DNA of 64,000 bases from Quercus robur (taxonomy: Eukaryota > Streptophyta > Magnoliopsida > Fagales > Fagaceae): the NCBI RefSeq assembly GCF_932294415.1, contig NC_065538.1:9740330-9804329 (forward strand), read 5' to 3'. Below the pieces are notes generated by a model. It had not been told where the DNA came from. It worked only from the letters and a program-made list of their open reading frames with translations, and did not search any database. Below, piece after piece: positions 1,531 through 37,822 of this stretch (its first letter is position 1; the number at the start of each line of letters is the position of its first letter). The translations under genes and the position numbers were made by a program.

Positions 1531-1533
1531 AAC
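1531..1533. repeat. CACTA target-site duplication, left (AAC)
   Basis: AAC directly precedes CACTACAAAA and recurs at 27957-27959 after TTTTGTAGTG. The unoccupied site in unit B carries it once (34625-34627). A 3-bp duplication is the CACTA norm. Confidence 0.9.
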
Positions 1534-1543
1534 CACTACAAAA
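1534..1543 (+). repeat. CACTA terminal inverted repeat, left
   Basis: CACTACAAAA, exactly mirrored at 27947-27956. Beyond ten bases the two ends diverge: the left continues AAAAGG, the right (read inward) continues CGCGGG. Confidence 0.92.
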
Positions 1544-1555
1544 AAAAGGACCTCT

Positions 1556-2227
1556 GGCCGCGTTTTAAAAACGCGGCTATATGATTAAAAAACGTGGCTA
1601 TATCCTCTGGCCACGTTTTTTTAGGCCGCGGTTCAGAATGTGGCCTAAAACCTGTGACTATAGGACTGATGGTCCTATGGCCGCACTTTTTAAACGCGGC
1701 CCCAGCTCGGGCCCTATAGCCACGTTTAAAACGTGGCCTAAGGGTCCCGTCTTAGGCCGCGTTTTAAACGTGGCCATAGGGTTTCGTCTTGGGCCTCGTT
1801 TTAAACGCAGCCCAAGGTTAGACCTTAGGCCGCGTTTATAACGCGGCCTGAGACTGGACCCTTAGGCCGCGTTTAAGAAGTGTGGCCATACCCTCCATGC
1901 TGAGGGCCTCTACACACCTTTAAGCCGCGTTTTAACCGTGGCCTAAGGTCCAGCCTTGGGCTGCGTTTAAAACGCGGCCCAAGAGTTCACCCTGAGGCCA
2001 CGTTTGAAACACGGCCCAAGAGTTCACCCTGAGGCCACGTTTGAAACGCGGCTCAAGAGGTCACTCTTAGGCCACGTTTTAAACGCGGCCCAAGACTGGA
2101 CTCCTAGGCCGCATTTCAAACGTGGCCTAAGTTCCAGCCTTGGGCCGCGTTTTAAATGCGGCCTAAGACCCCCCGAATTCCTATTCAGAATTTGTCTATA
2201 GCCGCGTTTTTAAAACGTGGCTATAGT
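1556..2227. repeat. Left subterminal array of CG-rich palindromes
   Basis: About sixteen imperfect palindromes of the form taggccgcgttt / aaacgcggccta occur every 33-40 bp, separated by short unique spacers such as agactggacc. They start about 20 bp inside the terminus. Variants swap gccgcg for gccacg, consistent with CpG decay. In En/Spm-type elements such subterminal repeats are binding sites for the tnpA protein; that role here is inferred. Short open frames across this array are by-products of the repeat. Confidence 0.85.
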
Positions 2228-2661
2228 TTTTTTTTTTTTTTTTTTTCTCCTTTTTCTGGGCAGATGAGTTTTCCTGTATTACAATTTTGTAAAGCAACAT
2301 AAATTTTCTAAAGCACAAATTTTCTCAAACCTGTCAACAAATTGATCAATCTTTATGGAATATGTCGTTCAATACAACAACTAAATGGAGGGAAAAAGTG
2401 TAAAATCCATTGGAGACAATATAATATTACAATCATGTTTACAATATTTTACAATCATGTTTACAATATTTTGAATATCCACGAAGTTACAATATTTTGA
2501 ATATCTACGAATTTACAATATTACAGTATTCCGAATGTCCACGAAGAGTCCTCCCTGTGATGTAGCGCTATCCTGAATATATTATATACATTCTATTAGC
2601 AGCACATAAACACACAAGTTTCATTAAATTAAAGGCAAAGTTTGTATTACCTGACAAAATG

Positions 2662-5333
2662 CTAAAACCTAAACTGCTTGGCGTCTTTTGTAAGAAGGCT
2701 AGTATTTCATCCATTTTCCTCTTTGTTTCAGCCATTTCTTGCTTTGTTTCGGCCAACTGCTGCTTTGTTTCGGCCAGCTGCTGCTCATGCCGTGCATCTG
2801 ACTCCCGCTTTGCTTCGGCCAATGCTTCGGCAATTTCCTCCTTGTGTTGTGCATGCAATGACGCCATCTGGTCTTGATGCCTCTGCTCTGCGTAAGCAAG
2901 TTGGTCCCTCATCGAATTTTCCAATGCAGTCATCCGTTGGGCCGTTTCAGGGGACGACGGCCCAGGCAAACATGGCAGGTTGGACCCACTTCTTCCTGTT
3001 GGGGTTGGTCCAAAACCGACCCCACGAACACGTCCAGAACTTTCTTTGCCCATCACTTGAGCGAACGCATCATCATGTGCCCAAAGAATTCCATCGCGAC
3101 GGTCTCCTTTTAGTTTGCCCCCGTTGTCTAAAATTTCTTTCATTTTTGACTGTTTTCATACATAAACCAAATAACATATTATTTGCTATAAACATTTCAC
3201 GCACAAAATAGAAAATAAATAGGTTATGATATAGGGCTTACAATCTTATGTAGCACTACATCACTAATAGGAGTCCCATCTTTCTTGCAGTATGCTTTTA
3301 TGAAAACATCTGCACGCTCCACTGCTTCGCCGCTTTCTTTTGCCTACATCATATTCATCAGTCTCATTACAATAGTGACAATTTATGTTGGTGATATGAA
3401 GCGACAATCGACAACCAAACATAGCAAATGAAAGCTGGAACATAACATGCAATATAACTGTAAACAAATTCCGTAAACATGTAGTTTATTACGTTCAAAA
3501 AGACGAGTTGCACTCTTCATGTGAATGCTTTGTATCAAGCAATTTTTGGTACCAACACTCTTGCCGTTTGAAAAAGTGCGGCCATAGCACCCTTGTTGAC
3601 AGCTTTGAAGACATTTTCGCCGCATTTAAAACGCGGCTATAGGCCACAACTATAGCCACGTTTCTTAAATGTGGTTATATCTGTTACCTATAGCCACGTT
3701 TAAAACGCAGCTATAACCCCCTAAGTATTTTTAGAATTTGTCTATAGCCACGTTTAAAACGCGGCTATAACCCCCTAACTATTTTTAGAATTTGTCTATA
3801 GCCACGTTTCAAACGCGGCTATAACCCCCTAACTATTTTTAGAATTTGTCTATAGCCACGTTTCAAACGCGGCTACAACCCCCTGCATATATGCATCCCA
3901 ATTGTATTGGAGATGTCCACTTTCAACCTATTTAGTTTTCCTATTGAAGGTCACAAAGGAAAACAAATTTCAAAAAGAACGAATTGCTATATACCAAACC
4001 AAGCTCTTGCTAACAATGTGGCAAACATAAATATTAATGAAATCGCTAATCAAAAACAGGAAACATCACCCCAACACTATGCTCTACATCAATAAACTAG
4101 TTTCTTCCTTACCCCGACACATAATAATTTCAATTTAACCAAACAATATGTACAGAAATTTTGTTGTGAATTTTCCATATTGATTATTTCTAAACCAAGA
4201 AGTTGTGGATTGCTTAGTTTGGACCCTACGACAACATTGGGCATTGCCACCATTACTGTCATCTCCATGCAAGCCCTTCCTCAATGCTAAACTCACGCCG
4301 ACAAAATCTATTTTAATTTCCATGAATTTGAATCAACCATGTTCTTTCAACAACAAAATAAATAAATAGTAGAGCATTATGTCAGACGTTCAATTAAAAT
4401 ATGTCAGAAGTTCAATTAAAATAGTAGAGCATTAAAACTTGGCTAGTTGTTGTATAATGCATTTCTTACCATTTTGTCCGCAGTTTGGGCAAAACTTATA
4501 GGCCCTGTCCTCGCTATATCCTTCTGAAACGAACGACTTCTCTTGTTCGTATCACATAATGTCTACAAACACATTCCCGCCAACAATTTAAAACAAAGAA
4601 ATCAATTAAAACACTGTACTCAGTATATCCAAATACCCCATCACATATATTATCACTAAAAAATAATAGAGCAAGAAAATAGTGCAACCTTCGTTTTCGG
4701 ATCAAACCAATAGTCAACTAGTGCGCGGTAGTCCTGCTCCTCAGCCCAAGATGGTTTATTTTTATAGACATCATCTTTCAACGCATCTTTTGGGTAGCAT
4801 TTCTTTTTCAACTTACTCCTTCGATTTCTTCTCAACTCCCCTAGCAAGTGCATTGCCCAGTTCATTTGATTAGCTGGTCTGATAATCTCTGGGTCAATGA
4901 TCCACTTTTTCTGAAATGCAAAAATTGAGTTAGCATAGTGCAATAATTCACCCTACTAAAAATGCCATTTAGCACATACACGGCTATAAACAAGAATTAA
5001 AAGTATCCCTATTTGATACAACCTCTATCGCTATCCAAGCTTCTTCTTTGTATTTACGGTCGACATGCGTCCAAGTTCTTGGCATAAGTGGGCAATAGTT
5101 GTGGCAGATGCATAAGGTGCCCAACCACCTTTTGAATGTTTGCCCGCTTTCTCCAACCGGCTGCTGGCTCCCATTTAACCCACATACAAGTTTCTTGTTC
5201 GCCGGAAGAGCCCATATCCGCTGCATTAGCGTTATTCCACGTTTTTTATTTAAATTATTGGATATTGGGGTTTCTGGAACTGAATCTTCTGCACACCCAT
5301 CAGTGGATGGTGCGGTTTGTTGGACCAAATCTT
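2662..5333 (-). CDS. tnpA-like protein of the CACTA element (Transposase_24 / Ptta-En-Spm family), 5' exon not found
   Basis: Five minus-strand exons join in frame through canonical GT/AG sites: 5333-5023, 4910-4689, 4562-4470, 3343-3242 and about 3149-2662. The product carries the plant En/Spm accessory-transposase features: a conserved first part with KKRGITLMQRIWALP, a basic block (LRRNRRSKLKKKCYPKD), then FAQVMGKESSGRVRGVGFGP, the family signature near the C-terminus. It ends in a coiled coil of AETKQ repeats. The 5333 boundary is an acceptor (tgcag), so the start codon lies on an upstream exon I cannot identify. No internal stop is seen. By family analogy the product binds the subterminal repeats and assists the tnpD transposase. 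The 3' end is uncertain: the frame stays open to 2568, or a donor near 2661 splices to an exon at about 2571. Confidence 0.75.
3618..3890. repeat. Internal palindrome array inside a tnpA intron, with a 54-bp tandem repeat
   Basis: The array lies within the intron between tnpA exons 4562-4470 and 3343-3242. Palindromes of the subterminal type (tagccacgttt / aaacgcggcta) recur. From 3711 a 54-bp unit repeats about three and a third times (3711-3764, 3765-3818, 3819-3872, then a partial copy). Each unit has the linker ccccctaact followed by atttttagaatttgtctat and one palindrome. The same linker is in the left subterminal array near 2190, so the intron array was probably copied from there. Confidence 0.85.
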
Positions 5334-5832
5334 CTGCATATAGTAAACCATTATTAGGAATGAAATTTCAAAGTTCACAATTAGAGAGATATATGTGATC
5401 TTTGTAAATGTGGACATTTTGATACTTAAAGAAACTGATAATAACAAATAAGTCGATGTCTCTATCTAAAAGCTGTTTTTATCCCTTACAAAAATAAAAA
5501 ACTGTTTTCATCCAAGGCAGAAAAGTTGCATGTATTTATCAATCATACAAAAAAATTCAAACACAGAGATGGAGGATTATGTCCTGGGTTTGAACTTATT
5601 AGCTGCTTGTGTTACTTATCGATAATAAGTAAAAAAAAAGCGATAAATATCTGTTGGTGTAAAAAAAAAAAAAAAAGGCATAATGTTTGAGCGTGTCTTA
5701 ATATTTTAATATTATTCTGTAAAGAAACTCTTGTAATAATAATAATTTTGTATTAGTTTCACCACATAATACACCTCATCCCCCCCCCCCCCCCTAACAC
5801 ACACAGGCATAAACATTGACTTGGACCATAGT
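5334..5832. other. Upstream intron/spacer of tnpA with homopolymers
   Basis: AT-rich DNA with an A-run near 5660 and a C-run at 5780-5794. The missing tnpA 5' exon may lie here or further right. No coding segment stands out. Confidence 0.4.
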
Positions 5833-5967
5833 GAATTCGCTAGGTTGGACCTCCAGGGAGACATATTCTCTTCACCTGTAATGATAGGTGGCAGAATATT
5901 TGTTGGTTGCAGGGATGATTATGTGCACTGCATTGTTGTTGAAATTCAAAGTCTATTGCAATCATAG
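5833..5967 (+). pseudogene. Captured gene fragment: PQQ-type beta-propeller segment of an acyl-activating-enzyme-like protein
   Basis: An open frame reads [19 protein letters not shown] followed by [10 protein letters not shown], then a stop at 5965-5967. The GDIFSSPV and [11 protein letters not shown] pattern is typical of a PQQ-like propeller blade. It resembles what I recall of the C-terminal part of plant acyl-activating enzyme 19 (AASDH-like). Only about 44 codons remain and they are on the plus strand, opposite to the transposase genes. The fragment is well inside the CACTA, so it is most likely host coding DNA captured by the element. The fold type is fairly clear; the exact parent gene is less so. 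Confidence 0.5.
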
Positions 5968-8010
5968 AGCTTATTTGTGTGGCTTTCACTATCCAAACCA
6001 TCGTCATATTCATTTTTAAGCCATAAGAATCTAGCTTGACCCATGCCATGAAATGTAATGAATGGTTAACTTAATTCAGGTTTTAGCTTTGCAAGGTCTC
6101 TAAGGGGACGTAACGTAAAGAATCTAGGTTGACCCCCCACTTGGGTGTTTTTTTTTTTTTTAATTAATTTGTTTTAGAAACGAATTATATACTAGAGAAG
6201 GGAGGCAAAATCGAGTGGAACTATCCCATCCGTTTCTTTTTAACCCAAAACAGTGGGAAATAGAAGAGATGAGTATGGTTCCATGAGGAGACCCAACCAT
6301 TGAGCAAGTGTGCTGCAGAGTTGGGTTTGATAGGACTATATATAGCTGTATATATGTGTGTGTGTGTGTGTGTGCTGATTACTGCATCCCTCCCTTAAAA
6401 CCCGTAGTCAGTCCAAATCAAATGATAGAGTGACACAATTAGGTATTCTCGTCAACAACATTTCAATTCTAGATTAGGCTTATGGTAGTTGAAACTTACA
6501 AAGTTAGTTTCCTAGATAAACTGTAACAGCAGACCAGCCCAAAGATGGCATGCAAAATTAACTCCAAAATCAATTTTGCAAATTTTTTTGCTTTGGGAAA
6601 CTGTACACCAAAGGAGAAAATGATAATAAAATTTACAAAATAGGGTCACCTAGCTTAGTGCTAACATTACATACATCAAACACTGACATGAAACTATGGG
6701 TTCAGGTCCTAACTGCCCCTAAGACTCTAGCCAAATTTATAACCAAACTTTATTAGATTTAAATTTTAACAAATCTAATTGAGGTTGGCCTAAGCCAGAC
6801 CCAACAGATGTGCCCTTTTGGTGATGTAATGTGCGGCAAAAAATAACGATTACGTACAACTGTACAAGCAAGAAAAAGTTATAGTGACGTGTATATTGCG
6901 TGTAGGTTGTATTTGAGAAAACCAAGGCTGGAAATCAGATTACTTTGAAGATGACAGCAGTCACAGCAGCTATGAATTTTTTATTTTTTATTTTTTTTTG
7001 GGAGGATAGTTGTCCTTTTCATTGGCTTAGGTAGTTTCATTTAATAATATTAAAAGTTTTGTAACTCAATAAAATTATCTAATTCTACTACAAAAAATTT
7101 GAGTTCAAATCTCACATTCGGTACTTTGATGTAAACAAAAAATAAAAAATAAAAAAATAAATAATGTCATTAACACATTGAGATTACAATCCAATTGGCA
7201 CCTTTCTATGTCTCCAGTACTCATACCACGGGCTCTTTTCTCTCCCCTTCTCGTCCCTTAAATAAAAAATAATAATAATAAATAGAGGCCCTTGACTTGT
7301 CCACAATTATATACTTGAATTATAAATGCTTTAATCAAGGAGTATTTGGGTCAAAGGTAATTCCATACTCTCTTATTTGGGAGGGCATATGTTCAATCCA
7401 TGAAGACTTAGTACTATTTTACTCCCAAGGAGTTGTGTATCTTTGATACAATACAATTACTACATTTATTATTCACATTAAAAAAATTACTAAATTTATT
7501 TATTTTAAATTTCTTTCTTTTCTAATTTGTAAATGGAAGATGCTTCTAAAACATCCAAATACCCACAATAGCCCAATTCAAGAATAACATGAGATTAGAT
7601 TCGTATCCCTATATCTTTATTAACAAACAAAAGGAATTCAAGGATAGTAACAAAATTACGATAAGTTTAGGGCCATTATTATATTTATCCCCATAGAATA
7701 AACTCTCTCAACACACAACAATGAAAAGTTTGTCTTCTACCTCCATATATTAAAAAAATACAAATAAAAAAATACTTTATCCTACACACATCCTCTTCAT
7801 CATTCACCACCTTTATAGACAACCATCATCCAAAAAACTATAATAAAGTTTCAGAAACAGATATCTAAAAGAGAGAGAAAAATAAAAATTCTGTGACATC
7901 TTGTTAATAAATAAAAAAATATTAAAAAAATTTGCGTGACACTGCAATGTTGATAACATAAAAAACAAGCAACTGATGTCTAGCTGTGCATATGTAGTCA
8001 ATTATGTGAT
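5968..8010. other. CACTA internal DNA without recognisable genes
   Basis: AT-rich, with a (TG)n microsatellite at about 6355-6373, T-runs at about 6150 and 6990, and A/T-rich simple sequence at 7130-7160. No coding or RNA gene seen. Confidence 0.5.
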
Positions 8011-8211
8011 GTGAACATATATTTTGCAAGAAATAAAGACATTGATGCTGGTGATAGCTTTTTATCATGTGTCAATCGATCTGGTAATTCAATAGCGCAC
8101 TTTTTTATTAAGTTTGTTAAATATATCTTTAATGATGTAACTTGGATGGAAAATCTTTCTCCTCCTGTCTTAGAAGTTTTGTTCTTTGACGTAAATGTTT
8201 CTCGGACGTAA
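8011..8211 (+). pseudogene. RNase H-like fragment from a non-LTR retroelement or RNase H-domain gene
   Basis: The frame contains CVNRSGNSIAHFFIKF and VTWMENLSPPVLEVLFFD. This matches the C-terminal end of the plant RVT_3/RNase H-like domain, whose usual form is (V)NR..N..AH.LA+.A followed by W.E..P..+......D. The catalytic N-terminal part of the domain is absent. A long T-run follows at about 8230. It is a short relic inside the CACTA. Confidence 0.55.
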
Positions 8212-8928
8212 ATGTTTCACTTACGTGAATGATAGTTTTTTTTTTTTTTTTTCCTAAAAAAGCAAGATAAAAGGAAAAAAAGAATAGAAAAAAGAGGATG
8301 AAACATTTAATTTTAAAAGTTTGTAGTCATAGTACATCTCGATTAGAATCCTCCTTCTCTCTAACAAAGAAAAAAGAAGATTAGAATCCTCTAGCCACTT
8401 TAATGTCGGCCATTTTCCATAGCTGACACACAAAATATTCTCAAAATCCTGGTTACAGGATGGACCCCAAAAAAGAAAGAGACTATGAACAGGGAAGTCA
8501 AGTCTACCCATCAAAACTCACTACTCTGTTGAACTATGACCCGTCTAGAAGTCTTTTTTTTTTTTTTTTTTCACAGTATTTCCTCCAAGCAGCCAATAAG
8601 GTAATGCAATTGTCTTAGTCTAATTTTGTTTAGGAGGGAAATGAGGCTGAAAGGTATAAAAAGCTTTTAATGCAGTTATCTTAGTCACATGCATTTCTCT
8701 TTGTAGTATTCATGGCAGCTATGATGCAACTTCATTGAGGTAGTCCTAGGCTGTAATTGTACCTTAAGCACAATACTATACTAGCAAATATACCAAGAAA
8801 AAAATGGAGAGTGAGTGAGGAAAGGCTGGAGGTGGGTGGTCGTCATCTTTGTCAACTAGCTAGCTTCAAAGGGAAAATATAAAAGTGTTTGCTGTTTAGT
8901 CATTACTAGTAAACATAAAAGTGTTACC
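8212..8928. other. CACTA spacer, no gene seen
   Basis: Contains T-runs near 8230 and 8555 and otherwise unremarkable AT-rich DNA. Confidence 0.4.
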
Positions 8929-9316
8929 CTAAGAATAATCTACATTGTACGAATAACTACCTCCAGAAGGCGCCTGTGTCTCATCATCATCAATATCTCC
9001 TTCCTCCCATCTTGCGTGCTCAGCATCATAGGCAGCCCTTAACTCCTCCTCCATGATGTCTCGTGTGCGTGATGAACCTTGGCCAACTTCCACAACTGTC
9101 AATGGATGGTCCCTTTCCATTCCTGTAGCAAACATTCGAAAAATTAGTTACAACAGTAATAAATATCAAACGTTACATTTTAAGATATGTAAACTACCTG
9201 AGGGCTGTGACCTAGCATCACTAGTATGGGCGGCTTGCAGCTCCTCCACTCTCTGTCGTGAACTCGAGGGTCCTTCGCCGACGTCTACAACTGGCAATCG
9301 GCGTTTCTTACCCATT
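8929..9316 (-). CDS. Small acidic two-exon gene downstream of tnpD (unknown function)
   Basis: Exon 1 (9316-about 9198) starts MGKKRRLPVVDVGEGPSSSR. It splices (donor CAG|GTAG, acceptor ctacag) in frame to exon 2 (about 9126-8929), which starts GMERDHPLTVVEVGQGSSRT and ends with YSYNVDYS and a stop. The product is about 103 residues, acidic toward the C-terminus (EEGDIDDDE). The two exons are related: RRLPVVDVGEGPSSSRQR.VEEL against HPLTVVEVGQGSSRTRD..EEEL, which suggests an exon duplication. It lies on the same strand as tnpD and tnpA and between them, so it may be a third element-encoded product or alternative 3' exons of the tnpD transcript. No known domain recognised. Confidence 0.45.
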
Positions 9317-9736
9317 TCTGCGTCCAACAACTTCACAAAACAAAAAAACTGTTAATTATAGACAACAATCAATTGCATAAAATGTAAATGAAACAAACTG
9401 GGTAAAATAACTTATTTTAATATCTAACAATATATACAAACATATATCCAAGTTTAAAAGCTTCTCTTTGCCAAACACTACAACCACAACGAAATGAAAC
9501 CCTAACACCAGACGATCATATATCCAAGTTCATAAGAAATGAATTTCAAATCCAATAGCTACAAGGGAAAGGAATTGAATACATAATAAGTAAAAATTAA
9601 AGGAATTAACAATAATAAGAGGAATTAACAAATTCAACAAATACTACACAGAGGCATTCCAACTAATTAATGAATGAATACGTTTTCATTAACAACTGTA
9701 ACATCCAAATACATAATACACCACTAAACTATTACA

Positions 9737-12700
9737 CTACTCATCATCGGTATACTCATCGTTGTTCTCATCTTCATTGTCAGACTCATCGTCAATAAAC
9801 TCATCTTCATTGTTTACTCCATGAAGATCTCTTTCAGCAATGATGGAGGCATCAACTGTCATTCCCTCTACATCATCCCGAGCCCAACGAAGGTTGTCAC
9901 TCACAACCTCATTAGTACTTATATTGTAGGGAACATTTTCAGAAAAACTATATGTATCATCCTCCTCACGTTGGGGACCAACACCAGCATCAAACACGTC
10001 CCTAGCTTTAGTTTTGACAACAGCATACCAATCCTTGTGCCTTTTATCTTCCACATAAAAAACTTGCGTAGCTTGCGATGCCAAGACATATGGTTCATCC
10101 GTCATTTTATCCCCACCATGTATGAAGTGTGTAAAGTTTACCATAGGAAACCCAAATTCATCAGTCTTATATCCTCTCCTATGTTGGTCATGAACCCATT
10201 TACACTTGAATAACACATATTTCATATTGTCAGAATAATTCAACTCGATTATATCACTTAAAATACCATAGTAAGTATTGCCCCCATCAGTAGCGACACT
10301 AACTCCACTATTCTGCGTTTTCCTGTTTCCCTCATCATTTACACTCCTAAATTTTAAGCCATTTATTACATAATGCTTGAACCGCTTTACATAAATATAC
10401 GGCCATTTGGACAATGCAACAAGGGTATCACTAACTTCCTCTCTTTCCTTATCAGCACCAGTGAGGGACATCACCTAACATCAGTTGGCCAAAATAAAAT
10501 AATTCATATCAGTACAATTAATCATAGTTGAGACAGTGTTACAAGTTTAATAAGTTGAAAATGTCATACGTACGTGACCCCTAAACCAAGTACAAAACTT
10601 CTCCATGTGGTGCTTATATATAATGGCATCAGAAACGTTACGATTGTGGCCTTTTCGAAGTTCATCCTCTATCAAGCTTTTGTGCATCCTGTGCAGGCAA
10701 TTGTATTAGGGTTAATAGACCTTACGTACATTCGATTGACGTCCAATTATATTTGTATATGTAATACTTACTCACGAAAGCGGTTGATGTTTTCGGAATT
10801 GAATAGAACGTAGCGATGGGCTTGGGTCCACTCTTTATTGTTTAGTGTCATGATCGAAACCACCCCCGTTGACTCCTCAATCATCCGGGTGGGTCGATTG
10901 AATATAGTTTCCACTCCTTCCATATACCGTGAACAAAATGTTAAGCACTCCTCTACTATGTATCCTTCAGCAATAGACCCTTCCGGAGCAGCTCTATTTC
11001 GTACGTAAGACTTAAGACGTGAGAGGTACCTATAAAGGAATGATAAGATTAATGACTGGCAATGGTAATTCGAACACGCACATGAAACTATAAGTTGATC
11101 AATAGTATTACCCACATCTTACCTCTCAATGGGATACATCCAACGGTAGTGCACTGGACCACCAATCTTAGCTTCAGCAGCTAAGTGCATGACCAAATGT
11201 ACCATCACTGTAAAGAATGATGGAGGAAATATTTTTTCCAATTCACACAATGTCACTGCAATCTCTGCCTCACTAGTCACAATATCTGAAACCGTAAGGG
11301 TTTTGGAACAAATTTGTCTAAAGAAGCAAGCTAACTTTATCAACGGCCTAGTAACATGAGATGGCAAAGAACCACGTAATGCTATGGGAAAAAGTTGCTG
11401 CATCAATATGTGATTATCATGACTCTTCAAACCAGAAATCTTGCGTTCTTTCATATTCACACGGCGTGAGATATTCGAAGCGTACCCATCGGGCACTGTT
11501 ACGTCCTTCAAAACTTGCAAGAAACCATCTATCTCCAATGAAGTCATATGAAAACATGCGGCCGGTATGGTATACTGATCATCACTTTTTCGTTGTAGGT
11601 GGAGTTCACTTCTTATCCCCATGTCCGCTAAGTCAAGGCGTGCCTTGTAATTATCCTTCGTTTTATCCTTCAAGTTCAACAGTGTGCTTAGTATATTGTC
11701 CATCACATTCTTCTCTATATGCATCACATCAAGATTGTGTCGCAACTTGTGATCCTTCCAATAAGGCAAGGTAAAAAATATACTCCTTTTCTTCCAACCA
11801 CTCTGGTCTGCCTCCCTTCTCTTCCTTTTTTTGTAAGCAAGTTGACATTTCCTACCCAGACAACGTCCAAGTAAATGTTCAGTTTCCACAATAATGTCAG
11901 ATGTGATTGGTGGTTCAGGAGCCAATCGAGCATCATTAGATCCATCAAATGACATACCATCTTTGCGGAAATCGTGGTCAACATCCAACCATCGCCGATG
12001 TCCCATGTAACAAAATTTGTGACCATTTCTCAAATATCGAGACTCGGTCTGCACGGCACAAGAAGGACACGCCAACTCACCTTTGGTACTCCAACCCGAC
12101 AAATCTGCGTATGCAGGAAAATCATTTATGGTCCACATCAATGCTGCATGCAATTGGAATACTTCTTTTGAAGATGCATCGTATGCTTGTACTCCAACAT
12201 CCCACAACTCCCTTAGTTCTTCTACTAACGGTTCCAAGTACACATCTATAGCAATCCCTGGCGAGGTAGGACCAGGAATAACTAATGATAGAATCAAAGA
12301 TGACCGTTTCATGCACAGCCAAGGTGGGAGATTGTACGGGACCAACATGACAGGCCACGTACTGTGACTAGTACTCATAATTCCGAAAGGGTTGAACCCA
12401 TCTGCAGCTAATCCAAGTCTGACATTACGAGGGTCAGATGAGAAGGGTAAATGCTTACTGTCAAACATTTTCCATGCATCTGAGTCAGCAGGATGCCGCA
12501 TTAGCCCATCATCAGTACGACCATTAACATGCCATTTCATAGAACTAGCCAGATCGGGTGAAAGAAATAGTCGCTGCAATCTTGGCTTTAAGGGGAACCA
12601 CCGTAGGATCTTCGCAGCTTTCTTCTTCCCCTTAGTGGATGAAGCATGCTTACTAGCAACAGATGCCTCATTTGTTTTCCACCTTGAAGCTTTACAACAA

Positions 12701-15863: not shown

Positions 15864-15979
15864 CTTAATTGCAACTTTCAGTCTGCTAAATTTTGCAAAA
15901 TCAACAGCTTTATGGTTATTTTCAAAACTCGCCCTATATGAATAAAATCCCTCTGAGGAATACAAAGCGGAGTCCCAAT
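15864..15979 (-). pseudogene. Isolated exon-like segment, unidentified protein
   Basis: A 116-bp open segment is flanked by an acceptor (tttcgatacag) and a donor (AAG|GTATG). It encodes WDSALYSSEGFYSYRASFEN followed by NHKAVDFAKFSRLKVAIK, which has balanced, non-repetitive composition unlike the AT-rich surroundings. I do not recognise the family. It could belong to the same captured gene as the LRR fragment at 14993-14777 (same strand, 0.9 kb upstream), but no linking exon was seen. Confidence 0.35.
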
Positions 15980-17543: not shown

Positions 17544-17767
17544 GGTAAATTCCATTAACATACCTTGAAGTTTGGATTAATACCAATTAGGTTTAAGACT
17601 TTTTAAAATTAGTCAATTTGGTTCCTAAAGCTCCCTAAATAGTTGGTTATTTTTTCTCAATTGTTTTATAGACTAAATTAGATTTAGGGACCAAATTGAT
17701 TAGTTTGAAAAGTCTTGGACCTAGATGACATTAGCCCAAATCTTAGGGAGTATGCATGGAATTTACC
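17544..17767. mobile_element. MITE-like foldback element, 224 bp
   Basis: The two ends form an imperfect inverted repeat of about 60 bp: ggtaaattccattaacatac at the left and ggtaaattccatgcatactc on the reverse strand at the right. Each continues to a shared tag near aagactttt. A related element spans about 39650-40210. It is non-coding. Confidence 0.65.
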
Positions 17768-19657
17768 CTATAGTTTAATACTAATAAATTTTCTGTTTTC
17801 AGACCTTTATTTATAACTTTTTCCATTAAACCTTTTTCAAACCCTAGTTCAACTATTTAGAACCCCTACTAGCTAGTATATATGTACAGATTCTTTTTTG
17901 TCACACTTAGTTATATAATTTTAATTGATGGTTTGTTTGTAAAGTACTGTGATTATTCCTGCCAATAGCTGACAAAAAGTCTTCACAAAACCACGTTTTC
18001 ATTATTGTTTTTTTTTTTCTTCCTAAATTTAGTATTTAAACTAATGATAAGGAATATATATATATATATATATATAGCCTTGTGACGTATTATTACGTAA
18101 TTTCTACACCTGTATGTCATTTACAACTTTGCAACATCAATCCTTACCAACTCAAGCTAACAACAATTACCATAATTATCCATTCCAAATGGCAACTAAT
18201 CCATTATGATCACAGACTCATTTTTACTGATTAAGTATGGTCATCTCTAATATACAACTACATATATAACAACACCAAAAATAGTAATAACAATCGCCCA
18301 GCACTTCTTACTAATTTCGAACCTGAAAGATTATATGCACTCTTGACCTTTCAATTCATTTACCTTATTGCTATATAGTTCATTGTACTTTTAAATGTAA
18401 TGACATTTTGTTCTATTTGACCGCAAAGATAAAGTGTAAGGAAACCCTCTAGTACCATATGTGGTGAAAGTGAAACTCAGTCTTTTCTGCGTGGAAAAAA
18501 AAGTTTGATTCTTGAAGGGGGAAAACAATAAAAAAATAATAATAATAAAATAAAGAAAGAAAGAAAAAATTTCTTTAGGCATGTGTTTTAACAAGTGGTG
18601 AGAGCAAGAAAAATATAAATAAAAATTTTGTTGAGACACGAAAATTTAAATGGAAAGAAGACTAAAGAAAAAAAGGTTGATATCATATCAATCTAAAACT
18701 AGATCTCATTCGTTTATGGAGTGTTGTCAATGAGTTTATACGCCTGAAAAAGGATTAGTTCGATTAATTAAATATGGTTTTTCTACGCTTATCCTAGCAA
18801 CATAATATTTTTTTTTTTTGGTTCAATTGTAACAAACTAACAAGTAACAACTATTGATATAATCCTTGTTAATTAACCTTCTTAACTAAAGGTTTAATTC
18901 GATTCTCAAAAAAAGAAGAAGGTTTTATTCCCTTTTCTTATATTTTAAACTCTTGTAGCAATATCCAAGATTTGTTCCTTGCGTGTAAATTTCAACTCAA
19001 AATCTTGATATTCCAAGAAGTCATCTACAGTTATTAATTTAAAATAGTTATCAAATATAATGCAGTAGATCTTTGACATTGTTAAGGCACTAGAAGAAAG
19101 GACCACTTGCTTGTTTAGGAATTAGTTCAAATATTTAAGAATGTTGAATATAATTTGGGACTTTATGTAAACCTATCAAAAAATCAGAGTCCATATCTGG
19201 ATGAATTGTTTCTTAGTTTGATGAAAATATTGACTATAATTGGGATGATATAAGAAAATTTTGACAAGTAACAATGGTCATTGGATATAGTGTTAGTGTT
19301 CCCCTTAAGTAAGGGGAATTTTCATAAGTATAATGTATATATATCTTCCTACTTATTGAAGCTAGCTACAGCATTTTCTTTTCAATGTTGGGTTTCCTAT
19401 TGGGCCAAAAGAAAGAGAAAATTAAATGACTTATCTTCTTCCACTTTTTTTTTTTTTTTTTTTTAATATTTAGCAAAAAGAAATTCTCATAGGGGTGGAT
19501 GGACACCAACCATGGACGCGAAGTCTTCCACTGTCATGGGTTGGGACTTCTTAAATAATAATGCAAGGTTGATAATACAAGTTATATGGATTATTTTTTT
19601 GATAAAGAAGTTAAGAAAGCATAATTGAGGCCAACGTGGTCTTTCATCAAACGTGTA
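17768..19657. other. CACTA cargo, no gene seen
   Basis: AT-rich DNA with a (TA)n microsatellite at 18053-18076, A-rich simple sequence near 18540-18570 and T-runs near 18010 and 19446. Confidence 0.4.
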
Positions 19658-19834
19658 TCTATAAAAACACCAAGCCGCCTATTAAAAAAAAAAAAAGCAT
19701 ACCCTAAAACGCTCTAACTTCCGTTTCTCCTCTTTCGGATACTCTCTCCTTTCGCTTCCTCTTGATTTTCTTAACACCGATGCTTACGATACAAAGATAG
19801 AGAAGGAGGGAAAAATAAACCTTGCGATTCAGAG

Positions 19835-20305
19835 ATGAGAAGAAGACAGATGTTGAGAGAACTACCACCGGTAAGTTTTTCTTTTTTTTTTTTCATTGTT
19901 TCTTAGATCTGGGTATGGGTATGAAATATGAATTAGTTTTGAGAAATTTGGTTGGATTGATTTTAATTTAGGTATTTGGGTTACATTAGGTTTTGATTTT
20001 ATTTTTTGAAATTTGGGGTTATATATGATTTAGGTCTGGAGAGGGCAAAAACAGAGAAATAAGAGAGAACAAGAGTTCTTATTCGGAAAGAGCAGAAATC
20101 TTTATCAGTAAATTTTTTTTTTTTTAAATATTGCTTTAAACGTTTGAGTTGATTTAGTATTAGGTTTGGGTATTTAATTGAATTGATTTTGATTCAATAT
20201 ATGTCTTCCTTTTTTTCTTTTTCCCCTTAAACTACACTCTTAGATACCATTTAGAGGACAGAAAAACAGCGAGTCGGAGATTGAAGAAGTTTGATTTTTT
20301 TTTTT
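19835..20305 (+). pseudogene. Possible captured 5' gene fragment within the Helitron
   Basis: Following a pyrimidine-rich, 5' UTR-like stretch (19725-19790), an ATG at 19835 opens a 12-codon exon (MRRRQMLRELPP) ending at GTAAG. A second exon-like segment (20034-20107, VWRGQKQRNKREQEFLFGKS) and a third (from 20244) can be joined in frame through AG/GT sites. The composition is very basic and no domain is recognised. Helitrons often carry such captured promoter-plus-first-exon pieces. Chance is possible. Confidence 0.3.
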
Positions 20306-22461
20306 TTAATTTGATTTTGATTGTCAATTTGTCAATTTTATTATTATTTTTTTTTCAATTAGTTTGTTCTGGGAATAGGAACAATTAAATAGGAATGTTG
20401 ATTGAAATCACTAGCAGACAAATAACTTGCGGAGAATGACTTAGTTTTGGTTGATTAGTTTTAAGTTTGGATTTGTTTTGATTAACGTTTTTGGAATCCA
20501 TTTATATATATATATATATATATGGGCATGTTGTTCCTTTGGGAAGGTTACCGTGTAAATTTTAAGGATTTCTCTGTTTTTCAGCATTGATAAAGATTAT
20601 TGATTTAGACGCTCTTATGGTATGAGCGCATCAACTTTTATATGTTTATCCAAGTCAATGATATGGACATGCAGCACCATGACAAAGATAAGATAATCAT
20701 GACCGTTTATGAATCAAGTTCTAATTCAATAAAAAACAATATATCACATGTATTAATCACGGCACACATGAATAAATCCAATACTTATGCAGAAAAAATT
20801 ACTGCAAAATTTTTAATATGAAGAAAAGAACTTTTCTTTCATTCTAAAACACAATTAACTCATTAGTGCTGTTTTGTTCTCAAAGCAAATTGACCTGTAA
20901 AATTGTTATGATTTCATTAATTTTTTTCCCACCTTTTCCCAGCAGCCAAATAGATTGTTAGAGTTCTCTTTTTTCTTCTTTTTTAGGCTATGCTTTGTAG
21001 CAAATTTGGCTTATTTGTGTTTGTATAGTTTTACAATGCAGTCTGCCTCTAAGATTACATATAGTCTTAGTTTTGCGAAATTTGAGTTTCTATTAGTCAT
21101 ATTTCTATAACTACTAAATTTAAGTCCAAACCGAGTTTTATATATATGGTTTGTGGTCTCTAGCATTTTTTCCTACAAAACAAATACATATGTATAGTTT
21201 TAAGTTTGACTAAACCATGTTTCAATAGATTTTCATACTATACGTATTTTTTTAATTTATAAATTGACATTTAATGTAATTTTTCTCTTTAGTTAAATAT
21301 GGATGATAGAATGGTTATAGCGAATGTGAAGATGAGAGACATACTTTGGTTTATGGTGGTTGACTATTTCAACAATTACATGTTGGTGCATACACATGTA
21401 TAGAAGGAAATCTATTTATGTGGGTGAGGTTGAACCAACATATATCAAAGACTGAATTATATAATGGATTGAATGGTGTGATTAGAATCCTAACTTTGAA
21501 TAAGAAAAATCTTTGAAGAGGAATGAGACTAACTTATTACTAAAAATTTTATGATATTATGATTTTGTTTAGCTATTTTATAGAGTTATCTTAGAAGTTT
21601 TATCATATCATGTTTATATTATTAGATTATGATAGTAGTAGGTTTAAGCAATAAGTGAAAATTGTAGTACCATACTAAGAGAAATTATTTATAATTCTTT
21701 GATTCTATACCTATAATCACCACCTTTACATATTTTTTCATAATTAATTTTTTTCCCCATGTTATATGCTTAATAATCAATGTTGTTTGTTCTCTAGAAT
21801 TGGTTTTTTGTTTAATTTTGCTTTCTCTTTCATTGTATTTGATAGATAGTATACCTACAAAAAACATAAATGAGTGTCTTAAGTTCATTGTATCCTCATA
21901 CATAACCATCTATTGAATGGATAGAGTATGGAGAATATGTGTCTAAAATTAATGAGAAAATTTGTGGTTTATATGTATTTATGATTTTTTTTTTTTTTTG
22001 AAGTTTCTTATCAAGCTTCTAAGATACATTTACTTTGTGCAGTATATAAATGTTGGGGTTAAACGGAATCTACAAAGGTCTATATTTATTCCTCACAAAA
22101 GGGACATGATAGGCGGAAAATAAAAAGGGGAAACGATATTTGACTGATTGGAAGGGAGCAAGAACAAAAAGAACAACTGAGATATGAAATGAGCTGATGC
22201 TGAATTAGCATCTTCAAATGCACTTGGTTGGATTGTTTTAGATTTAGATATTTGACTTAGATTTGGTTTTAATGGGTTTAAAATAAATTTTGTTTTGAGT
22301 ATTTGTATTAGATTTGGGTTAAATTCGTTTTTGGTATTTGCCTATGGTGTTTGTATTTAGATTTATAAATGGAGATATGTGTTGGGTGTTTAGTACGTGG
22401 TAAAAGTGTATTTAAATATTATTAAAAAAATTCTTTTCTAATAAATGTAAATAAAAAGGTT

Positions 22462-22490
22462 CCCGCACATAGTGCGGGTTAAAAAGCTAG
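22462..22490 (+). terminator. Helitron 3' terminal hairpin and CTAG end
   Basis: Stem CCCGCAC/GTGCGGG with ATA loop, then ttaaaaagCTAG. This is the element's replication-termination signal by family analogy, not a transcription terminator. Confidence 0.75.
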
Positions 22491-23603
22491 TTTATGTTAA
22501 TTTAGGCACCTTGACAATCTTTAATATAATAAAATTCACCTATTATCAATTTTATAGCAAAGTTTTGCAATTAATAAGAAAAACTCCCATATTTATATAT
22601 ATATATATATATATATATAATCTCCCCTATCTCATCCCCCTTCCCCTATATATGTGTGTGTGTTTCTAAAAAAAAAAAAAAAAAAACTATTACCATCTGT
22701 AGTGTTAAATTTAAATCTCTACTATGCTATCAAAATCACACATTTTTATAGCTGTGAAAGGACGCAGACAGAAAGGGATCATCAAAAAGCTTTGATAATT
22801 GTATGTCTTATGAGTGTCTGATCTTTGTTTATGTAACAAACAATTATAAAGCATGTAATGTGATATGGTAACCTTATTTCAAATTTATTACCATATAATA
22901 TGTTCCACAAAAATAAAAACATACTGCATTAGTGTGCATGCAGGGGTTAGCTTGGGATACACATGGCCTTAGGTAAAGTTAAAGTCAGTTAATTTTGTAG
23001 CATTTAGGCCTGACACTAGGTCTGTAAAGTTCATCCTTAGTCTACCTAGTGGATAAACAGCTTAGTCTACCTAGTGGGTAAACAGCTAGGGTGGTTCAGT
23101 ACAACCTGATGTTTGCAGCCTAAGTAACAGAGACTAATAAGTGAGCTAACAAGGGACACTGAAATTGCAGAAATTCTTGTTTCTACCAAAAAAAAATATG
23201 TAAAAAAAGGAATATTCAATTGGAAGAGTTGTAGGTTTATAAAATCTGTCTTAGGAAGCATAATATTTCCATCAGCTGAATTATCCTAACACCTTACATG
23301 GGTAGATCACTGCACTGTATAAATTTGCACATATTTCAATAATATAGAGAGTATGGGGCTGATCACCCTGTTTCTATCACATTTCTATTTTTAGGTGGCT
23401 TAGAAAGTAGTCAAGTCTCAACTCATTACCCTAGACAAAAAGATTTTATCTACATTTTAATTTGTAATTCTAGTATGGAAGCTTCGTTTTAGTCAAGCAC
23501 ATTTTTATGGTTTTTCTGCTTATGTCTTAGGTTTTATACTAAATAATAAGTTTGGAGGTATTTTGGTATAAGTTAAACTTTTCCTGTAAAAATGATAATA
23601 ATA
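22491..23603. other. CACTA cargo, no gene seen
   Basis: AT-rich with (TA)n at 22594-22618 and an A-run at 22668-22685. A short duplication cttagtctacctagtggat/aaacagct repeats at 23036 and 23062. Confidence 0.45.
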
Positions 23604-23904
23604 AGGGTAAGTTACACTGATACATCTGAGGTGTAGTGAAATTAAACTTGCTATATCCAACTTTCAAGAAATGACATCATACCCCCAAATGATAAAAATA
23701 ATTGAAACCCCACCCTCTTTTTTGAATTAATTTGGGGGTAGGTTTAATTATTTTTGATCATTTGGGGGTATGATGTCATTGAAGAAGAAGAAGAATTGCT
23801 ATACTAAACAAATAATGCAATTGACATTGTCACCCTCTTTTTTAAATTTCTTTGGGGCAGTGTTAATTATTTTGATCATTTGGGGGTGTGATGTCATTTA
23901 CCCT
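23604..23904. mobile_element. Foldback MITE-like element, about 300 bp
   Basis: It starts agggtaagttac and ends gtcatttaccct. Inside, gacatcatacccccaaatga has its reverse complement twice: tcatttgggggtatgatgtc at about 23759-23778, and a second variant at 23877-23896. The right arm is therefore internally duplicated. It is non-coding. Confidence 0.55.
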
Positions 23905-26900
23905 AATAATGAAGAAGAAGAAGAAAGAAAAAAATTCCTGTAAACAGTTTTCAACTGATTGGAGAGAGTTTGGATCCCAATACAATCTACCTAAAACTTA
24001 TCCTGACTTCTAGGGACTGAAGACGCATGTATTCTCCATTCAGCTTACACATATTATAAGTTCCATCAAATTGTAAACAGCTTGCACCTTTTAATGTTTG
24101 GATAGGTGTAAACAGCTTACACCTGTTGATGAATGTACCCGCCATTCATATAAAGAAGGTAATTTCCAATTGAGCACTTATTGTACCCTTCTACTTCCGT
24201 CATAGATGATTAGATCTCCACCATCAAATGTTGCATTTAACTACTTCCTTCAAGTAAGTTTTATGAACTGAAAACTTGGGGGGCACAAATAGGCCAAATT
24301 TTTCTGATAGAGCAGTACGAAAAAAGAACAGGGTCATTTTAAAACCACGAGGTATGGACTTGATATATGGATGGAAAAATATTTTTGCACTAAACTGTAA
24401 TCTCGTTCCAAATTGAAAAAGATCTAAATAGAATAACCTTATAAATATTCAATAATGCTTTATGAAATGATTTCAATGTAATTTGCACTACAAATCATGA
24501 CAATAATGATACGTAATTTTGTGGTTTGTGACACTTGCAATGTGGGCTGTGGGAAGCAAATAACGGAAGCCCATATGATACTTCTTGATATATGTAAAAG
24601 GAAACATTGGTATGAGCCTTGGTCAAGATGAAAATTTATTTTTCATTGGTAGGGAGTCTAAATTACCTCAAACCATTCAATTTCTTCTTATGGTATAAAG
24701 AAAAATAATTTGTAAATATAGGCAGCTACACCAAACAGGAAAATTAACTTATTATACCAATTAGTATAGCACTTCAAACTAAATGTCCGTGCAGATTTCT
24801 TCAATATTATGGAGAAACAACGCAAAAAGAGAAAAAGTAGAAAATTTTAAATTGAGAAGTGTTGAATCCAAGAACAGAACATCAAAGTGAGCTTTATTGC
24901 AACCAGAAAGCAGAGAAAGATCTTCTTCACTTCTAAGGAGGGTTGTCCTTAATTGTGTTGCATCCTAGGAAGCACACACACTTCATTTGGGGTGTCTTAC
25001 CTGTGTCATGCTAGTGTCATACCCACCGTGTTGTTTTACAATTTTTTAGAAATTGCTTGTATTGTCGTGTCCATGTCCATACTTCCTAGGTTGCATCCTA
25101 CGGTCGGGGTATTCAAATATTTCCTAACTACAAAGCATTTGCTTCACAGTAAATCATCAACAATTGAAACTAACTCACAAAAATTAAAATAAATTTGTGC
25201 AAAGAGACATAAACATGCAAGCAAACACTCAAACACGCATGCACATTTAGGAAACACAAATTTTCAAGAATCTTTAGAGAGAAAAAACTACTATGTTCTA
25301 ATTCAACCCCTAAAAGTTGTAAAGGCTATCATGCTAGTGCTAGCTAAGCCAAAAACTCTCTTACAAAAAAAGAAAAAGGAAGAAGAAGAAGAACCCATCT
25401 TTGTTCACCTCAAACTTATCTTACTGTGCACGCATGTGAAATTGAATACATTTTCATTGTCTGTGCGTATACTTGTGCTTGTGGATGTATTATGCTCCAA
25501 ATTTAGACCCCACAATGCTATGCAGTAACAGTTTACCCAACTAGTGCAAAAGACACGTCCCAATCACGGTAACAAGGAAAGTAGGACAATTATACTTTTC
25601 TGTATGCAGTTTTCTTGTCATGATGGCTCTAAACTCGGAGAAAGTACAAACCCATTGTCTTCACTCTTTCACAAACACTGCACATATAATTAGGCCAATC
25701 ATTCTAGGGTTTTATTTGACAGAGTTGCATGTATCTTGTTCATTTATCATTCCAAGTGCGGCAGGACTTTTTTTGTGGGGCATGTAGCTCGACTTGAAGA
25801 ACTAGTGGCAATGAATGATGCTTCAAAGCATAGCCAATAAAACGGAGCCTACAAGGAAAAATATCGAGTCTAGCAATTCCTTACACCTCTACATACTCTT
25901 GCTAGCCTTCCCCTTTAAATGAAAGTATTTCCAAACAGTGTTTCTGTCATGCATAATGACCAAGAATACTATAAATGAGAGCCACAAATACCACTCAATA
26001 CACGATTGTTGTTGGGATTTCGGCTGTGTAAGTTGAACATTAACATCTTAAGAAGTTCTCATTTTGTAAAGTCATATATAATGTAATATGCTGAAACGTT
26101 GCCTTAACCCAAGAGTTTAAGTTTATAGTTTCAGCCTAATTATGTTAATTAATTAAATATATCACCACTGAAGGTGTGTGGTCCAGTAACAAAAAGGTAT
26201 AGTTCCATGTGATTTTATTGGAGTTAATGTCTTCAATTATCCTTAGGAGCATGAAATTGGTTCTTAAAATGCTTGAGAGATTGCTATTGGGTCCCCGATA
26301 AGGTTGAGATTAAACTATGATTGAACCCACACCTAAGAGAATGTCTAGGATCCCTCAAAAACAGCTGCAGTTATATATATATATATGATGGATTATGATC
26401 ATGCTTAAATAAAGACTCCATGGCTATTCACACCTTACTATTTTTTTTGAGAAAAAAGAAAAAAAAGAAAAAAAAAAAACAATGTTATATCAACATTTCA
26501 TTCTTATCACTGTTATCAAATGTGAACTACAACACATTGACCAATCATGCTACTCACACTTATATATATTAGCAAAATTGATAAAAAAGAATGTGAATTT
26601 TCATCTTAAGACTTCTTCGATTGAGTCCACTTCTTTCAATCAGAATCTTGCTCAAAGTGGCACACTGATCCATACAGATTCCAATGTTATTGGATTATAA
26701 ATCCTACAATATTAAAGTCCTCTGTTCTAAAATATAATCAAATATTTGTGGAATGATTGATAGTTAAGCACGACAAGATTTGTGAGGTTTGAGTATATAT
26801 TGTATATAATAGGACTCTCGCTACTTTTTTGTATTTATTATTTGACAAGAATGTGGTTGACACTAGAAAACTGTAAAGCTCAAATGCCCATAATGCAGCA

Positions 26901-27050
26901 CACAACAAAGAAAAAATAAATAAATAAAACTATTACCATCTTATCTAAAAAAAAAAAAAAAAAACTATTATCATCTTATCTCAAATGTTATACTATGAAA
27001 GCCGCCAACATGTTCTACAAATCTCACACTAGAGAGAGAGAGAGAGTACA
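23905..27050. other. CACTA cargo, no gene seen
   Basis: Mixed AT-rich DNA. The stretch at 24955-25090 (catcctaggaagcacac ... cgtgtccatgtcc ... cttcctaggttgc) has the look of retroelement-derived repeat. An A-rich tract at 26450-26480 and another at 26947-26964 are present. No coding gene or RNA recognised. Confidence 0.4.
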
Positions 27051-27472
27051 TACGCTTTGTCGGCGATGGGCTCGGCGGCGTTGGGTATGGGTCGCCGATG
27101 GGTATGAGAGTTCGGCCTTGTCAGTGTTGGGGTCGTCGGCGCTGGGCTGGTCTCTCGGCGTCGGGGTCGGCGGAGTTTTTTTATGGGTTTCTCTGAAGAA
27201 AGAAAAAATTTAAAAAAAAAACTGGGTGAAATTTAGATCGGATGGAGGGTGACGGACAAAGAGGTTGAGATCGGATGGAGGGTGAGGGTTGAGGTCGGAG
27301 ATGGAGGGTGATGAGGGGTCAGATCGGTCGGAGGTGATGCGGGGTCAGATCGGACGGAGGTGATGAGGGGTCAGATCGTAGATCGGATGGTAGATCGGAT
27401 GGAGCGCTTGAAATCTGATGGGTTGGAGAGTAGATGGGTTGGAGAGTTTCTCATTGGTATTTATACTTCCCC
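27051..27472 (-). promoter_or_regulatory. Putative CACTA promoter and pyrimidine-rich leader at the right end
   Basis: Read on the minus strand, TATAAATA (27458-27465) sits just inside the right palindrome array. It is followed by about 250 bp rich in CTCC/ATCC repeats (tccatccgatct, tcacctccg), typical of a plant 5' leader. All element genes are on this strand, and En/Spm-type elements start transcription next to one terminus. The distance to tnpD is about 14 kb, so a long first intron would be needed, or cargo has separated promoter and gene. A GA microsatellite lies at 27032-27048. Confidence 0.5.
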
Positions 27473-27946
27473 TAAAGCCGCATTTTTAACATGCGGCTAT
27501 AGGGGAAGTCTGAAGCCCCGTTTCAAAAACGTGGCCCCATCCAGAACTAGAGCCGCGTTTTTAACACGCGGCTTCAGAACCGGTCCTTAGGCCGCGTTTC
27601 TAGCTCAAGAAAACGCGGCCTCAGAACAGAATTAGAGCCGCGTTTCCAACACGCGGCTTCAGGACCAGCCCTAGGCCGCGTTTTTATCTAAAAAAACGTG
27701 GCCTCAGTAAAAGAAGACCAGAAAAAAAAAAATAAAAAAAGTTTCAGAAAAAATAAAATGCGGAGGTCCTTGGGCCGCGTTTTTATCTCAAAAAAACGCG
27801 GCCTCAGAACCTATCTATGGCCCCGCGTAAAAAACGCGACCTTAAGGTTCACCTTGGGCCGCATTTTTGGAAACGGGGCTTTAGCCGTACCTTGGGCCGC
27901 GTTTTCTATGGCCGCGGCTTTAAAAACGCGGCCCAAGGCCCCCGCG
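27473..27946. repeat. Right subterminal array of CG-rich palindromes
   Basis: About ten palindromes of the same core as the left array (agagccgcgttttt / aacacgcggcttc; taggccgcgttt / aaacgcggcctca). Several have longer loops such as ttatctcaaaaaa. Spacing is about 45-60 bp. The last ends against the terminal repeat. Confidence 0.85.
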
Positions 27947-27956
27947 TTTTGTAGTG
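27947..27956 (-). repeat. CACTA terminal inverted repeat, right
   Basis: TTTTGTAGTG, exact reverse complement of 1534-1543. Confidence 0.92.
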
Positions 27957-27959
27957 AAC
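27957..27959. repeat. CACTA target-site duplication, right (AAC)
   Basis: AAC follows the right terminus and continues into agaggaaa, exactly as in the empty site at 34625 onward. Confidence 0.9.
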
Positions 27960-34620: not shown

Positions 34621-34630
34621 TAAGAACAGA
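34621..34630. other. Empty target site of the CACTA element
   Basis: taagaacaga is continuous here. In unit A the same bases are split after AAC by the 26.4 kb element. This independently fixes both element ends. Confidence 0.9.
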
Positions 34631-34898
34631 GGAAAAGGGAGAGGCAAAAATTTCAACGGGCATGCATGGTTTAGATCGACTTACGTGCATGCATGGTTCA
34701 TGTTTAGACTTACGTGCGTGCGTGGTTCATGTTTAGACTTACCTGCATGGTTAATGTTAGTAGGACATTTAAATTGAGTTGGGGGACACAGAACATTCAA
34801 GACGAAAATGTCCAATTCCTTCTGTTATCAAAGAGAATACGAATGAAATAAGAGAGGCAACTCTACCTCATATTTTAAGTTTTCAAGTCACATCACTT

Positions 34899-35668: not shown

Positions 35669-35706
<38 letters not shown>

Positions 35707-37817: not shown

Positions 37818-37822
37818 ATTAT

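Follow-up and report, generated by a model that had tools for sequence, protein, structure and literature searches.

A complete 26.4-kb CACTA transposon of Quercus robur with a legible record of host-DNA accretion

How do cut-and-paste transposons acquire host DNA from loci that are not linked to one another? This open question is raised by a stretch of 64,000 nucleotides from Quercus robur (assembly GCF_932294415.1, contig NC_065538.1, positions 9,740,330 to 9,804,329; hereafter the window), which contains a complete CACTA (En/Spm) element of 26,423 bp with AAC on each side. As a kind, this is an ordinary, real CACTA element; what distinguishes it is an unusually legible record of host-DNA accretion. 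The reading we consider probable is that a full-length CACTA element inserted at AAC, that its lineage gained a Helitron-like insert and, most likely through template-switching repair, DNA from four host loci, and that part of this cargo has moved. The limits of the element and its site are set by the following features, numbered by window position:

1534..27956, minus strand: complete CACTA element, with its 5′ end at 27956 and its genes read on the minus strand
1531..1533: target-site duplication (TSD) AAC, left copy
27957..27959: TSD AAC, right copy
1534..1543: terminal inverted repeat CACTACAAAA, 3′ end of the element
27947..27956: terminal inverted repeat TTTTGTAGTG, 5′ end of the element
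1534..2240: 3′ subterminal repeat array, units of ~37 bp with GGCCGCGTTTT/AAAACGCGGCC
27467..27956: 5′ subterminal repeat array
3619..3884: internal repeats with the same subterminal motif, in 54-bp tandem units at 3688-3884
34195..34896: empty paralogous site, with the insertion point after the AAC at 34625-34627

A preliminary description of this DNA had proposed a complete CACTA transposon at 1531-27959, and the termini, the TSD, the subterminal repeats and the TNP2 domains described below bear this out; the interval named there is the element plus both copies of its target site, and the AAC duplication does fix the insertion to the base. CACTACAAAA and TTTTGTAGTG form a perfect 10-bp inverted repeat that begins with CACTA, as expected of the superfamily. 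Outside the element's termini, the window has one CACTACAAAA (at 55005), and no TTTTGTAGTG was found in the 64 kb beyond 27947-27956. By itself, the 10-mer is weak evidence, with 6,813 genome-wide sites on both strands compared to 5,747 for a reversed control. The subterminal motif GGCCGCGTTTT is more telling: all 16 of its window sites with at most one mismatch fall in the element's two ends, ten at 1556-2200 and six at 27551-27895, which is the asymmetric, GC-rich subterminal arrangement of CACTA elements. The 54-bp tandem repeat at 3688-3884 amounts to 3.6 copies; siblings of the element align to it in several registers, and copy number may vary.

Likewise upheld was the claim that the pre-insertion site is preserved in a neighbouring paralogue. 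With the element removed in silico, 1086-1533 joined to 27960-28084 aligns continuously with 34195-34756 (577 columns, 90.5% identity), and GAATAAGAACAGAGGAAA is unbroken at 34618 in the paralogue, whose sequence, GAATAAGAACAGAGG, has one AAC only. Patchy homology between the host copies (507-1533 plus 27956-32736 compared to 33481-39596, at 83-93%) extends beyond the insertion site, which argues for a tandem duplication of host DNA and against a chance match. The simplest reading is a single insertion into one copy after that duplication. Could the empty paralogue instead have been occupied once, and have lost its element by precise excision? CACTA elements do excise, and in a single genome a precise loss is indistinguishable from absence. 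However, excision usually leaves footprints, none was found at 34618-34635, and a single insertion after the duplication is simpler, making former occupancy very unlikely. The neighbouring tandem empty site provides a clean pre-insertion control. The host tandem duplication as a whole spans 507-41699, is 83-93% identical in patches and has additional unshared insertions; no gene was identified there.

What does the element encode? Two gene regions and a leader can be recognized:

9740..13410, minus strand: TNP2 transposase gene with Transpos_assoc, Transposase_21, DUF4218 and DUF4216; exons without stops or frameshifts
2568..5367, minus strand: TNPA-like second gene with a weak Transposase_24 match; exon model incomplete
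27053..27466, minus strand: leader kept in siblings (aligned with the sibling copies e2 and e3), with a TATA-like box at 27458-27465 (by eye) and a putative splice donor GT at 27053

A TNP2-type transposase is indicated by the Pfam matches (PF02992 at E=5.9e-96, plus PF13963, PF13960 and PF13952). The 766-aa TNP2 open reading frame (ORF) is 96% identical to Quercus robur LOC126721563, the next named matches being from Quercus, Lithocarpus and Castanea, and the region 13410-9740 covers residues 1-1130 of the 1,130-residue Q. robur protein, stops in the alignment being confined to intron-like stretches. Of the second gene there are exon pieces only, and its Transposase_24 match scores 23.4 bits, below the cut-off of 28.7. 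Judging from the open TNP2 frame and the TNPA-like gene, autonomy of the element is plausible. The ~14-kb region ahead of TNP2 is apparently a leader intron. Neither the six-frame Pfam scan of 13420-27519 (X at stops; no domain at E up to 0.1) nor Rfam over the window (0 matches at gathering threshold) returned anything; nested LTR retrotransposons within the element were rejected, there being no long direct repeats inside.

Which parts of this sequence belong to the family, and which were added? To answer this, siblings are needed. The genome searched comprises 786 Mb in 42 contigs. From the 6,813 CACTACAAAA sites, 100 were listed, all on contig C1, and sequence was read around 88 of these; the copies described here are a sample, namely the first 12 Mb of C1 plus loci from the segment searches given below. 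Other genomic copies bounded by the same termini are present, and three had both ends read: e2 (C1:63083-92115, 29,033 bp, TSD TCT, including an N run of ~5 kb), e3 (C1:2778532-2801231, 22,700 bp, TSD CGT, with the first half of TNP2 absent) and a sister on contig C35, to which we return (27,788 bp, TSD TTA). Equal ends combined with differing 3-bp TSDs, AAC in the window and TCT, CGT and TTA in these siblings, show that the family has been mobile in this genome. For a further copy, e6, the 3′ end lies at C1:5763669, and the 5′ end was not found within 30 kb read upstream; its TNP2 matches the whole protein in two pieces that are in different frames and overlap near residue 630, suggesting a likely frameshift.

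These lengths temper the remark in the preliminary description that the element, at 26 kb, far exceeds typical autonomous CACTA elements: the siblings measure 22,700, 27,788 and 29,033 bp, and published elements reach 20.5 kb in soybean (PMC2613891) and 10-25 kb in grapevine (PMC2528002). The length itself is thus unsurprising; the content is what surprises. Going beyond the preliminary description, we trace this length to three things: DNA taken from four host loci, a Helitron-like insertion, and extensive non-coding compartments that surround a transposase gene of intact appearance.

The larger copies have in common TNP2 (~96%) and the 3′ gene region. Homology of e2 and e3 to the window element covers its ends and the regions of TNP2 and TNPA and is absent from most of 13,700-27,030: divergence spans from the conserved leader, slightly past the GT at 27053, to ~290 bp before the TNP2 start codon. 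Exceptions are islands of 78 and 68 bp common to e2, a stretch beside the Helitron common to e3 and, between the window element and e6, 98 bp more of this divergent leader region. Over ~5,515-8,893, the window element is also unlike e2, e3 and e6; in this stretch e3 and e6, where they align, are 97-98% identical to each other. Within these two compartments, between leader and TNP2 and between TNP2 and TNPA, we distinguish the following parts, the four lettered ones being those that we read as captured from the host:

17064..19377: captured host segment A, 98% identical to C37:66810443-66812756; the donor adjoins the end of a LOB-domain gene
23570..25276: segment B, captured from the host, with 96% identity to C38:43990532-43992260
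25272..26911: segment C, likewise captured from the host, with 96% identity to C38:12598001-12599658; 5-bp overlap with B (CTTTA)
6707..8590: captured host segment D, of which 6777-8590 is 97% identical to C39:44111251-44113067 and 6707-6777 is 96% identical to C39:44113154-44113224
16945..17063: filler partly copying nearby sequence
19641..22490, plus strand: Helitron-like insertion with a 3′ hairpin CCCGCACATAGTGCGGG and CTAG at 22487-22490, then T
5891..6710: lineage-specific segment, 97% to a sibling at C3:64.497 Mb and ~90% to C4:41.776 Mb
13420..16944: older intron sequence, 97% to the C3 sibling (C3:64.487 Mb, a locus that runs on into TNP2); 13961-15136 recurs in 12 further places at 89-92%, one of them a partial match
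22492..23552: older intron sequence, 94-98% to five places, one partial

Together, the four stretches, ~7.5 kb in sum, match four separate host loci at 96-98%. The underlying genome searches used 13420-27466 (71 matches listed; best 38 of 1460 candidates scored), 5390-8950 (43 matches; best 40 of 115 scored) and segment A (83 matches; best 40 of 411 scored). Full or near-full matches to segment A occur in three places among those scored, the window, the C37 donor and the C35 sister, the other 79 rows falling within a dispersed repeat of ~230 bp; segment D likewise has three such places among those scored, the window, the C35 sister and the C39 donor. That repeat, at 17541-17770 in segment A, matches on both strands and is MITE-like; the donor and the window element both have it, whereas the C35 sister has lost it by deletion.

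Are the donors really host loci, rather than other copies of the family? Donor flanks were compared over 3.2 kb per side for A, B and C (700 bp + 2.5 kb) and over 370-450 bp for D, and, short exceptions aside, nothing in them matched the ends, the genes or the intron of the family as represented by the copies compared. Donor A adjoins the end of a LOB-domain gene, with PF03195 in two exons (E=7.6e-19 and 4.1e-16). One flank of donor B contains a START-domain piece (PF01852, E=9.4e-13); the other has a transportin-like match of 21.6 bits, below its cut-off. Donor C has an ORF that we take to be UFO-type F-box-like, which a Pfam scan and a PDB search (0 matches) did not confirm. By these neighbours, the captured stretches look like host flanking or intergenic DNA.

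Alternatively, the extra segments might be nested, undescribed non-autonomous transposons in the CACTA intron, with no host capture at all. One nested element is indeed real, namely the Helitron-like insert at 19641-22490, which displays the hairpin and CTAG followed by T that mark a Helitron 3′ end (by eye). Homology to e3 ends precisely at this boundary, which is an A|T site (e3 reads AAA|TTTATG there, plus strand); on the 5′ side, several copies begin at 19641, beside TCTTTC, and the preceding base is G, not the host A. Among the matches listed, parts of the insert recur in nine other places at 92-96% and in four more at 84-88%. Segments A, B and D, moreover, contain small dispersed or palindromic repeats. 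However, B and C abut with a 5-bp overlap and without a target duplication, the junctions displayed have no terminal repeats of their own (by eye), and A and D each occur in the three full or near-full places only, within the best-scored candidates stated above. We therefore regard nesting as an unlikely account of the four segments.

How might pieces from four loci have been joined? The B/C junction reads ATCTTTA|GAGAG, donor B continuing as ATCTTTA|CTTAG and donor C arriving as CACTTTA|GAGAG. The two donors are 31 Mb apart on C38, and in the element their segments abut directly with CTTTA in common. At this base composition, the chance of at least five common bases at one junction is ~0.008; B/C is the sole donor-donor junction and microhomology was scored there only, so that this counts as one observation. 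Before segment A lie 119 bp of filler, in which 25 bp repeat 17758-17782 exactly and 15 bp are a copy of 17762-17776. Microhomology of 5 bp and templated filler are signs of template switching in break repair.

This observation also bears on the published model of CACTA capture, in which neighbouring elements inserted in tandem lose their facing ends and remobilise with the host DNA between them (PMC13317346, PMC8903248, as set out in the available parts of both). That model yields one contiguous host stretch per event, whereas here fragments from 31 Mb apart are directly joined, templated filler borders A, and the element, which has both gene regions, carries its captures in non-coding compartments. 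Several separate events of this type could still be arranged to fit, yet we consider such a history improbable.

Instead, we favour capture by template-switching repair as the probable account. An element with an intact-looking TNP2 entered one member of a pre-existing tandem duplication of host DNA at AAC, as the occupied and empty sites show. Its lineage has gained the four-locus host DNA and the Helitron-like insert in the leader-to-TNP2 and TNP2-to-TNPA compartments, as comparison of the copies shows. For the host pieces, the likeliest point of entry is the repair of breaks inside the element, such as gaps from its own excision, by synthesis that jumped to other loci at short microhomologies and left templated filler; to this the one 5-bp chimeric junction and the one filler point. 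Part of the cargo is also found in a complete sister copy on another contig. The cargo regions are probably spliced out (as predicted for the leader compartment) or intergenic, so that the transposase frame would not be interrupted.

The sister, C35:37733076-37760863, is complete, with TTA flanking its first and last base. It matches the window element from the 5′ end down to 26112 at 99%, including 800 bp of C, and departs there. Segment A is present at 99-100%, with a 393-bp deletion; its left junction, including the filler, is 99.75% identical over 401 bp and its right junction 98.75% over 480 bp. The stretch 5390-8950, including D, aligns at 99%, and the last 365 bp of the 3′ end at 95.6%. 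A sister that is complete on another contig and contains A, D, part of C and the filler means that the cargo has moved. As donor identity (96-98%) is lower than sister-sister identity of the cargo (99-100%), the data fit a capture before the window and C35 copies split, no rate having been applied. The C3 sibling has 5891-6710, with no match to A or D among the matches listed; captures thus look stepwise.

Might the mosaic be an assembly artefact that joins unrelated contigs? Misassembly is common for long repetitive elements, and the B/C junction has no second witness of the kind just described. But the left junction of A with its filler, the right junction, the D compartment and the element's ends all recur in a second complete copy with other flanks and another TSD, identity being 98.7-100% in the cargo and at the 5′ end, and 95.6% in the final 365 bp at the 3′ end. 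We hold an artefact to be extremely unlikely.

Several points nevertheless weigh against the reading we prefer. In the C35 sister, neither B nor the B/C junction was observed, no search having been aimed at B or C, and the single matches for B and C are no proof of uniqueness, given that 38 of 1460 candidates were scored and that the same search missed the sister's A. Segment A holds the dispersed repeat of ~230 bp and D one of ~185 bp, and the donors carry repeats of their own. As for the donor flanks, donor D is bordered by 34 bp that duplicate a piece of D, the far flank of donor C includes 38 bp with 87% identity to a stretch of e6, and a few dispersed matches fall in those parts of the window that belong to the host. 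None of the captured segments was shown to contain a gene, and the 14 kb, in which Pfam detected no domain, is mainly non-coding DNA.

Beyond the large copies, the survey of C1 turned up two short elements with the family's ends and subterminal motif, at C1:7686843-7688043 (1,201 bp) and C1:8467615-8469757 (2,143 bp), which are probably non-autonomous deletion derivatives. Two loci were set aside as remnants: C1:4531955 has the same 5′ end and matches the copies e1, e2 and e3 over 156 bp only, and C1:5685521 matches at the 3′ subterminal array only. Three pairs with CACTACAAAA-type ends (C1:689198/707103, 1566626/1575943 and 3035635/3039502) were rejected, having 0-1 motif hexamers each and lacking the family's subterminal repeats. 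Two more CACTACAAAA-ended loci, L022 and L085, have related but differing subterminal motifs (e.g. GCTGCGTTTT), which suggests sister families in the same genome. At C1:9865357-9945040, six CACTACAAAA sites on one strand are spaced ~14-16 kb apart, as in a large tandem array. In the window itself, 44219-46694 (minus strand) contains ORFs that by eye resemble a decayed LINE reverse transcriptase and a zinc-knuckle region.

CACTA elements carrying host fragments are already well known; in wheat, 140 CACTA capture events were reported on one chromosome (PMC4290129). As far as the available parts of the cited papers go, the closest counterpart in architecture is Tgmt* of soybean, a CACTA element of 20.5 kb with a 3-bp TSD, subterminal stem-loop repeats, tnp2 followed by a DNA-binding-protein part and a long left border of 6,122 bp before the first predicted exon (PMC2613891). 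In the oak element, ~14 kb precede TNP2 and include DNA from three host loci plus the Helitron-like insert, and the subterminal motif is GGCCGCGTTTT instead of TTGGCAG. Tgm-Express1 is likewise a CACTA element with fragments of five unrelated host genes, but measures 5.7 kb and is composed of these fragments (PMC1947982), whereas here TNP2 looks intact and the cargo is mostly non-coding. Chenopodium CACTAs share the order TAD, Transposase_21, DUF4218, DUF4216 and then Transposase_24, and some complete elements have captured gene fragments 5′ of the coding sequence; the largest is 16.5 kb, and no chimeric donor-donor junction or templated filler is described in the available parts of that paper (PMC8978399). 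Among the grapevine Cactavine elements, of 10-25 kb, one family is described with a captured PPR-gene fragment downstream of the transposase ORF (PMC2528002), as compared to four donors and a Helitron-like insert in one lineage here. With Pack-CACTA and Pack-TYPE elements, the oak element has in common that host DNA, segments A-D, lies between CACTA ends and has moved; those, however, are defined as non-autonomous (PMC8903248, PMC13317346), while this one has a transposase gene. A limited literature search, covering such partial sources, found no report of a transposase-bearing CACTA element in which microhomology and filler connect several pieces of host DNA from unlinked loci.

For the study of capture, this family offers base-exact junctions, donors at 96-98% identity and a sister that shows which junctions are older than a move, and a C3 sibling with part of the added sequence could let the order of events be read. 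A CACTA element, moreover, can become large by adding DNA to its non-coding compartments and yet keep an open transposase frame. A more general notion, which we put forward tentatively and with slightly less than even confidence, is that the non-coding compartments of this family act as sinks, in which break repair with template switching stitches together unlinked host DNA without breaking the transposase, such that transposase-bearing elements would keep collecting and spreading DNA from the flanks of host genes or from between them. A 2026 review, in its available parts, holds that another, undiscovered mechanism may exist for unlinked fragments in DNA transposons (PMC13317346). If true, the oak family would reveal a capture route of this kind, beyond Pack derivatives.

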